A stretch of DNA of 64,000 bases from Prevotella sp. (GTDB taxonomy: Bacteria > Bacteroidota > Bacteroidia > Bacteroidales > Bacteroidaceae). Under the pieces are notes generated by a model. The model had not been told where the DNA came from. It ran no database searches and saw only the letters and a program-made list of their open reading frames with translations. A program made the translations under genes and the position numbers. This document shows, in pieces, positions 59,905 to 62,900 of the stretch. The number at the start of each line of letters is the position of its first letter. Within the stretch, counting starts at the first letter, position 1. The DNA is taken from the NCBI GenBank assembly GCA_015060485.1, contig SUYI01000002.1, positions 124,001 through 188,000 of the forward strand, written 5' to 3'.

Positions 59905-62900
59905 GAAGCGCCTTGTTTATTTCTCATTTCTCATTTTTCATTTCTCATTTAGTGTCAGTGCGGCTGACACTACAAAGCCCTGGACCTTCTGGTACTGGAT
60001 GTATGGCGCTGTATCAGAACAAGGTATCAAAGCCGACCTCAAGGCCATGAAGGATGTGGGATTGGGCGGCTGCTATTTGATGCCTATTCGTGGCGCTGCT
60101 GAGCGGCCTGAATACGAAGGAAAGGCTGATGCGCTGAGCGAGAACTTCTGGCGGATGGTAGACGTGGCGCTCATGCAAGCCGATTCTCTTGGCTTGGGAA
60201 TGGGCATTCACGTCTGTGACGGGTTTGCACTCGCTGGAGGGCCTTGGATATCGCCAGACGAGTCTATGCAGAAGGTGGTCTTCTGCGATACCGTTGTCAG
60301 CGGAGGTCATCATCTTTTCCAGATGCCGAAGCCCCAGCATTACGAAAACTACTATGAGGATATTGCCGCCTATGCCATTCCAATTAGTAATCATAAACAT
60401 CAAACATCAAAATTCAAACTTCAAACTTCCCCTGTGGTTACGGTGAACGAAAAGGGTGTTTATTGTGCCGACGAGCCCTGCTGGATTCAGTATGAGTTTG
60501 ACGAACCTACGGAGATTCGCTATGTCGAGATAGAGCCTTCGGGTACGAATATCCAGTGTCAGCGGATGACGGTCAAGGTGTCGCCCGACGGGGTCATTTT
60601 TTATACCGTCAAACAATTGATGCCCCCTCGTCAGGGTTGGCAGAACACGGGGTGTCATACGACGTTCAGTATTCCCCCGTGCCAGGTGAAATACGTCCGA
60701 CTGGAGTGGACGCCAGCAGGTTCGGAACCAGGTGCTGAGGATTTGGATGCCGCCAAGTGGAAACCTGTGTTGAGGCTGAAAGGAGTTAAGTTTGGCAGTT
60801 GGCCGGTAATCGACAATTGGGAGGGCAAGGCAGGCTATGTGTGGCGCATTGCCCCAGAGACGCCCGAGGTCGACCTGCCTATGGAGGAGTTCTTGCATCC
60901 TCACGATGTGGTGGCTTTCAAGATGCAGGGCGACTACGTGGACGTGGCGCTGCCCGAGGGTATGTGGCGCTTTCTGCGTATGGGGCACACGTCGACGGGT
61001 CATACGAATGCGACGGCTGGTGGTGCCAAGGGCTTGGAGTGCGACAAATTCTCGCGGAAAGCGGTAGAGAAACAGGTGGACCGTTGGTTCGGGCTTTTCA
61101 TGAATCGTCCTAACCACAAGGCCATCCAGTATCTGCACGTCGACTCGTGGGAGTGTGGTTCGCAGAACTGGAGCAAGAACTTTGCTCAGGAGTTTGAGTG
61201 CCGTCGTGGTTACGACATCATTCCCTTGTTGCCCCTCTATGCCGGCGTGCCGATGGCGGGAGGCGAAGAGGCGTTGCGCGATATTCGCAGGACCATCGAC
61301 GAACTGGTGAACGAAGTCTTTTTTGTCACGGTGGCGCAGAAGGCCAGGGAGTATGGTGTGCAGCTGTCGTCAGAGAGCGTTGCACCCACGATGGTGTCCG
61401 ATGGAATGGCGCATTATCGCTATGTGGACGTACCGATGGGCGAGTTCTGGCTCAATTCACCCACCCATGATAAGCCCAACGATATGCTCGACGCTATCAG
61501 TGGTGCACACGTCTATGGCAAGAATATCGTGCAGGCTGAAGGTTTTACAGAAGTGCGAGGCGTATGGGACGAGACGCCGGCGAGCATCAAGGCACTCCTC
61601 GACAGGAACTTTGCCTTGGGCATGAACCGCCTCTTCTTCCACGTGAACACCCATAACCCTTGGCTCGACCGCAAACCAGGTATGACGCTCGATGGAATCG
61701 GACTTTTCTTCCAGCGCGACCAGACGTGGTTCGCTGAGGCCAAGCCGTTCGTCGATTATATCACGCGTTGTCAGACGCTGCTGCAAAAGGGCAGGCCTGT
61801 GGTGGATATTGCTGTGTATACGGGAGAAGAGATTCCCTCACGTGCCTTAACGCCTGATAAGCTGGTACCGATGTTGCCTGGATTGTTTGGGGCAGAGCGT
61901 GTGGCGTCAGAACAAAAGCGCCTCGCCAATGTGGGACAGCCCATGGAGGAGTCGCCCGTGGGTGTGCGCCACTCTGCCAATATCTTCGACCTGAAGGACT
62001 GGATCAATCCTCTGCACGGCTATCAGTACGACTCGATGAACAAGGATGCCCTGCTGACGCAGCCCTTTAACTATAAGGTGCTGGTCATCCCTCAGGGTAC
62101 GTTGGTGTCTAAAGAGGCCAAAGCAAAGATTGCCCAATTGCGTCGACAAGGCGTGCAGGTGATCGACAAGCCCTACAAAGATTCCGTTTTCGAGAAGGTG
62201 GCTCCAGATGTCGTCCTACCTGATGGCATTGCCTATGCCCACCGTACCGGCGATGGTTTCGACATCTACTTCCTTTCGAACCAAACAGACCGGGCGCTGA
62301 CGTTCTCGCCTGCTTTCCGTCAGCACAATGGCGAAGCGGTGGTGTATCATCCGCTAACGGATGAGAGCTATGCCTTTGACGGCACCGTCTCGTTGCCGCC
62401 CTACGGCTCCGTCTTTATCACCTATGGGCTCTCTGAATATTCCCACGCTGGGAATAAAACATTCCCACACTGGGAACAAAATATTCCCACGCTGGGAATA
62501 AAAAACGGGCCTTGGGACATCTTTTTCAAGGAAAGCGGTATTTCTCTTTCGAACCAGCAGCTCTTCGACTGGAGCCAGCATGCTGACGAACGGATTCGCT
62601 ACTTCAGCGGACATGCCCGCTATACAACGACGTGGAAACTGAAGAAGGACGAGGTGCCTCAGGGGCGGGCGTGGCTCTCGTTCCCTAACGTGAAGGATAT
62701 TGCCCACGTGTGGATTAACGGCAAGGACTGCGGCATTGCCTGGACGGCTCCCTACAAGGTGGAGATCACAGGCGCCCTGAAGAAAGGCAAGAACACGGTA
62801 GAAATAGAGGTGGTGAACACGTGGCACAACGCCCTGCGAGGTGCTGACAACGGCAAAGCGCCCTACGAGGGCATTTGGACGAACGCCAAATATCGCACGA

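Follow-up and report, generated by a model that had tools for sequence, protein, structure and literature searches.

The window analysed here is a 64-kb stretch of a Prevotella sp. draft genome (64,000 nucleotides), towards the end of which a forward-strand CDS (59903–62965) encodes a protein of 1020 residues belonging to the GH106 alpha-L-rhamnosidase family (PF17132, E 5e-121). Within the linker preceding its C-terminal domain, at 62439–62503 on the + strand, three units of the type TTCCCA-NNN-TGGGAA (TTCCCACGCTGGGAA, TTCCCACACTGGGAA, TTCCCACGCTGGGAA; hereafter family A) are arranged in tandem. All three are perfect 6-3-6 palindromes spaced at exactly 22 bp, and the array is translated in frame as YSHAGNKTFPHWEQNIPTLGIKN. 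Two degenerate family A-like units, with 3 and 1 mismatches to the consensus respectively, are located at 22650–22704 (no strand assigned), again at period 22, in the intergenic region 5′ of fucI (22774–24597). Both the in-frame triplet and the related pair before fucI had been described in the initial annotation and are present, although the latter is degenerate. The same annotation held that arrays unrelated in sequence share one geometry, which is borne out by family B (CGGACT-NNN-AGTCCG; 31173–31247, + strand, approximately 3.4 copies at period 22); it has the 6-3-6 palindromes and 7-bp spacers of family A and is in frame inside a CDS with an MG2 domain (30478–32754), and in the genome by several families with unrelated arms. 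A fourth array, of the AATCAATGTCATTGATT type and absent from that annotation, comprises four units at period 21 (12011–12094; no strand assigned) and is intergenic, starting 32 bp past a CDS that ends at 11979.

Palindromic arrays with a period of 21–22 bp exceed chance in this genome, a 3.94-Mb draft for which the array census comprised a 1.21-Mb sample and genome-wide pattern searches. When the sample was scanned at periods 10–40 for runs of three palindromes whose arms resemble each other, arrays emerged at periods 21 (3), 22 (12), 27 (1) and 28 (1), i.e. 15 of 17 at 21–22, and shuffled sequence yielded none. Tandem Repeats Finder gave a matching excess at periods 21 and 22, and TTCCCANNNTGGGAA occurs nine times in the whole genome, as three triplets, with no occurrence of the reversed-pattern control. 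The initial annotation had staked its case on further period-22 arrays elsewhere in the genome, and these proved plentiful. A strong excess of 7-bp tandem repeats was also observed in the sample (the window together with L012–L070), with 75 arrays at period 7 and 36 at period 14 (e.g. AAACCTC); these are apparently independent of the palindromic arrays.

A BLAST search with the GH106 region against 200 congeneric genomes returned, in addition to the gene itself, dozens of matches to the approximately 66-base array alone, at unrelated loci. By pattern search, TTCCCA units are found in 68 of the 200 genomes, with highest counts of 121, 88, 47, 38 and 37. Of the 334 intervals within 152 distinct arrays, 331 measure exactly 22 bp; 96 arrays contain three units, 26 four, 19 two, 10 five and one six. 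By the ORF caller used, 120 of the 152 lie outside ORFs, so that the family consists of short palindromes in high copy that are chiefly extragenic. When two adjacent units were searched for across GTDB, the matches listed came almost only from Prevotella-type contigs, those with names belonging nearly always to Prevotella or Xylanibacter and being predominantly of rumen origin; the 66-bp array had no match in the phage collection. As judged by BLAST coordinates, one array (G178:C12) is missing from the matching locus of three relatives (G006, G009 and G004), and such a presence–absence difference at one locus is what would be expected of a mobile element. It is extremely improbable that the arrays arose from chance palindromes through slippage (local tandem duplication) since, although arrays range from 2 to 6 units and the genome is rich in 7-bp tandem repeats, identical units recur across species and at loci unrelated to each other, dispersed copies that already contradict slippage, and three-unit palindromic arrays are absent from shuffled DNA and from most other periods.

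Some arrays lie inside coding sequence: 22 of the 152 family A arrays fall in reading frames that are 250 codons or longer; they occupy either strand and various frames, and 17 of these 22 have three units. Stop-free frames through the 152 arrays number 657 of 912, as against 264 of 912 after shuffling; as the TTCCCA units are stop-free in the majority of frames, and a set of three 22-bp units restores the frame, a copy in a linker can survive. The GH106 array is common to relatives but decayed, and is longer in two of them, and is therefore an old resident rather than a recent hit. No clean empty site was found in this gene, relatives holding either decayed copies or an unrelated linker of similar length; since their sequences differ, a clean empty site cannot be demonstrated there. 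The arrays offer an explanation of why enzymes of Prevotella repeatedly contain short inserted peptides, of which the one in the GH106 protein is an example. In-frame palindromic inserts of about 20–30 residues in tolerant regions are also seen with Rickettsia palindromic elements (RPE) and intragenic CGTC/GTAG REPs; the arrays described here differ from both in their unrelated sequence and unit structure, in being mostly tandem with at least three units, and in having a candidate partner gene. In several species a family A array occupies one and the same position of a membrane acyltransferase-like protein (assigned by eye; 356–373 residues; L228, L206, L236, L254, L275, L309).

Short palindromes in many copies, with an intergenic bias and occasional intragenic copies, are also traits of REP/BIME-type elements, and movement of the arrays by a Y1 (RAYT/TnpA-REP) transposase, which the initial annotation had raised, would account for them. 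The genome contains two PF01797 matches, and family A counts across congeners correlate weakly with Y1 counts (rho 0.25; phylogeny not controlled). However, no palindromic array is present in the stretches round either of these two genes, the four highest-copy congeners (121, 88, 47 and 38 units; 92–99% complete) have no PF01797 match, and clustering of the genes next to the arrays brought no recognisable Y1 gene to light. Family A copy number correlates better with the number of virE genes, considered below (rho 0.40; phylogeny likewise not controlled). Movement by a Y1 enzyme is thus very unlikely, and RAYT/Y1 as the main driver was rejected after a search of this genome and the 200 congeners. 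The arrays resemble REP, BIME and REPIN sequences with their RAYTs in being high-copy, mostly intergenic short palindromes, with families that differ by genome and a partner gene that has copies next to it; they differ in their strict 21–22-bp tandem arrangement, in that no GTAG/CGTC-type tetranucleotide tag was seen beside the stems (by eye, in family A), and in the partner, which is a primase-helicase gene rather than Y1. Tandem repeats of 23 nt dispersed in a Bacteroidales genome are known from the BrickBuilt MITE of Porphyromonas gingivalis; BrickBuilt has a leader, a tail and IS-like terminal inverted repeats, none of which was seen for the arrays here.

The tie between the arrays and virE is the new part of this work. 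When the genes neighbouring the 152 family A arrays were clustered, virE was the first-ranked neighbour at 15 loci, at least three of which are near-identical orthologues, and it occupied none of the 475 slots at ranks 2–4 (Fisher p 2e-8 versus rank 1). Wherever the array could be placed relative to virE (14 cases), it lies on the 5′ side, 170–472 bp from the ATG. For a wider comparison, virE genes were collected by their virE domain from this genome and ten congeners, together with four array-bearing loci found earlier, and arrays were scored at period 21–23 within 600 bp upstream of the gene. Such arrays occur upstream of 28 of 59 virE genes, with period 22 dominant, which is the placement and helical phasing expected of iterons, tandem repeats of about 17–23 bp close to the initiator gene; they occur downstream of 9 of 59 and upstream of 1 of 101 other genes (p 9e-14 for the two upstream sets; the comparison is weakest in its controls, which were matched neither for the length nor for the AT content of the intergenic DNA). 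By this method roughly half of the virE genes are without an array. Upstream of virE, the spectrum of base identity against lag has its maximum at 22 (0.317; mean 0.268, sd 0.009), followed by lags of 44, 21, 11, 66 and 33, and the downstream spectrum has no peak at 22 or 44. A good part of the virE-upstream arrays are direct rather than inverted; arms of at least five bases are present in 44%, versus 11% after shuffling. Palindromic period-22 arrays also precede virE genes of Bacteroides and Parabacteroides.

Genes of the virE/VapE type are common, being found in 140 of the 200 Prevotella genomes surveyed, and five of 40 array-rich genomes are without virE in their drafts. Most family A arrays lie far from any virE gene; such orphan arrays are many and genome-wide, and are not confined to a replicon origin as iterons would be. 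Families are matched to virE within a genome. Clear arrays precede two virE genes of the present genome, each array belonging to a family that is also scattered through that genome: TTNCGTCGGACGNAA is present as 52 units at approximately 26 loci (control 0), one of which is upstream of a virE gene at C72:217005, and the second virE-upstream family, TGTCGGT..TGTCAG, is likewise dispersed. In the congener G178, roughly four of six virE-upstream families also occur away from their virE locus, in stretches chosen for family A. Families that precede virE in other genomes, and are unlike family A, form no arrays in the 1.2-Mb sample of this genome at a threshold of four mismatches, the exception being one G178 unit at a single locus. 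No virE gene of this genome is preceded by family A, so that the partner of the 62439–62503 triplet is inferred from relatives.

The virE product contains a VapE-like helicase domain of the VapE/SF3 type (PF05272) and a C-terminal DUF3874, to which long forms add a BT4734-type primase domain (PF08800). An AlphaFold2 model of the product of the C72 gene (pLDDT 81.7) ends in a winged-helix-like order of helices and strands, and among solved structures it comes closest to SaPI PriRep1 bound to dsDNA (7pds, E 8.6e-17); another virE product matches 7pds by sequence (2.5e-10). On domains and predicted fold, virE thus appears to encode an initiator-type helicase with a dsDNA-binding domain. Primase-helicases of the VirE kind initiate the replication of staphylococcal islands, and the origins of SaPI and SCC elements lie downstream of the helicase gene rather than upstream. 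Kazlauskas and colleagues listed BT4734 among primase families and predicted VirE domains to be helicases for mobile-element replication (PMC5862659), and the related mobile-element helicases SaPI Rep and SCC Cch2 bind to iterons that adjoin the genes encoding them (PMC7581432).

The arrays could be a separate mobile element that favours landing sites upstream of virE, with virE neither moving nor reading them. The sequence of the arrays is indeed discordant with the virE tree, family A being found upstream of three clades whose sisters carry other arrays (a scheme of one virE clade per array family was ruled out on this tree), and one virE gene has several unrelated arrays stacked upstream of it. 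Preferred landing would nevertheless leave unexplained why the dispersed families are those found upstream of virE in the same genome, why 22-bp periodicity is general upstream of virE, and why arrays are rare in other intergenic regions, and we regard it as unlikely.

Alternatively, the arrays might be operators for ordinary regulators or nucleoid proteins, selected in place, virE being one regulated gene among others. Tandem palindromes on one face of the DNA would suit cooperative dimers, and the arrays lie 5′ of the virE start, some of them beyond a Bacteroidetes-type promoter motif (identified by eye). Arrays also adjoin unrelated genes, occupy convergent gaps and sit inside CDSs, however, and unrelated sequences keep the same spacing; moreover, the G178 array locus described above is without its array in three relatives. 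Selection in place as ordinary operators is therefore rather unlikely.

On balance, the 62439–62503 triplet is probably an orphan copy of an iteron-like site of a VapE-type initiator, with dispersed orphans elsewhere. The resemblance of the VirE fold to PriRep1, the helicase prediction for VirE and the binding of iterons by SaPI Rep and Cch2 together lead us to read the arrays as iteron-like VirE sites. VirE, acting as initiator, would bind a series of half-sites in the array, each separated from the next by one helical turn (approximately 11 bp), and the array would serve it as origin and/or operator. Array families would be replaced rapidly under a constant 22-bp spacing, and copies of each would disperse within the genome that has the matching virE array, mostly into intergenic regions and sometimes into genes. 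Arrays of TTTCGTCGGACGGAA at period 21 are taken as a candidate target of the VirE protein encoded at C72:217005. The likeness to the iterons of SaPI Rep/PriRep, SCC Cch2 and iteron plasmids lies in short repeats beside an initiator helicase gene, and VirE is homologous to the SaPI and SCC helicases with a similar overall fold (7pds).

Several observations run counter to an iteron-like site. The arrays are upstream of the gene, unlike those of SaPI and SCC, and there are many orphan copies over the chromosome, most of them far from virE. Several virE genes examined lie among ordinary chromosomal genes with no island recognised, again unlike SaPI and SCC. To these points are added the discordance with the virE tree, the proportion (about half) of virE genes lacking an array, the lack of a family A-preceded virE in this genome, and the fact that no common C-terminal signature was seen, by eye, in the family A-associated VirE proteins. 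Neither a target-site duplication nor movement of an array was observed.

More tentatively, the arrays may form a REP-like system without a transposase, in which the VapE-type primase-helicase both recognises and spreads its own iteron arrays, the families diversifying with the 22-bp geometry kept and peptides being inserted into host proteins; we consider this possible, if rather doubtful. No account of the arrays was found in the open-access literature, a search outside which most subscription papers fall, and our results suggest that they are a large, apparently undescribed class in Prevotella, and an unusual form of mobile DNA without a transposase. They also point to a possible way for short DNA to spread in the absence of such an enzyme. 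In the literature found, the roles of VirE/VapE proteins are predicted ones, and the cognate-looking arrays provide a testable DNA target.

Further features were observed around the arrays and virE. Family A pairs are present on five viral contigs, four of which (IMG/VR L193, L194, L196 and L197) share one gene of 383 residues; on these four the arrays sit beyond the end of the shared gene, and no virE gene was seen there. In G178, composite non-coding units of 500–650 bp (L156:16279–16941, L159:8939–9522, L167:8739–9246) resemble the region upstream of the L166 virE gene; they contain several array types and inverted AACATACAC blocks, with no virE detectable beside them. The closed genome G024 carries four near-identical segments of at least 2.6–5 kb on one chromosome (L374–L377), which hold virE, its array and an upstream toprim/primase-like gene. 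The use of this duplication as a guide to the ends of an element failed, as homology runs kilobases upstream through the toprim primase-like gene. Finally, DUF6078 proteins are encoded just upstream of several virE genes (L419:3423–3863, L334, L380), and at 11 loci they lie no more than two genes from a family A array.
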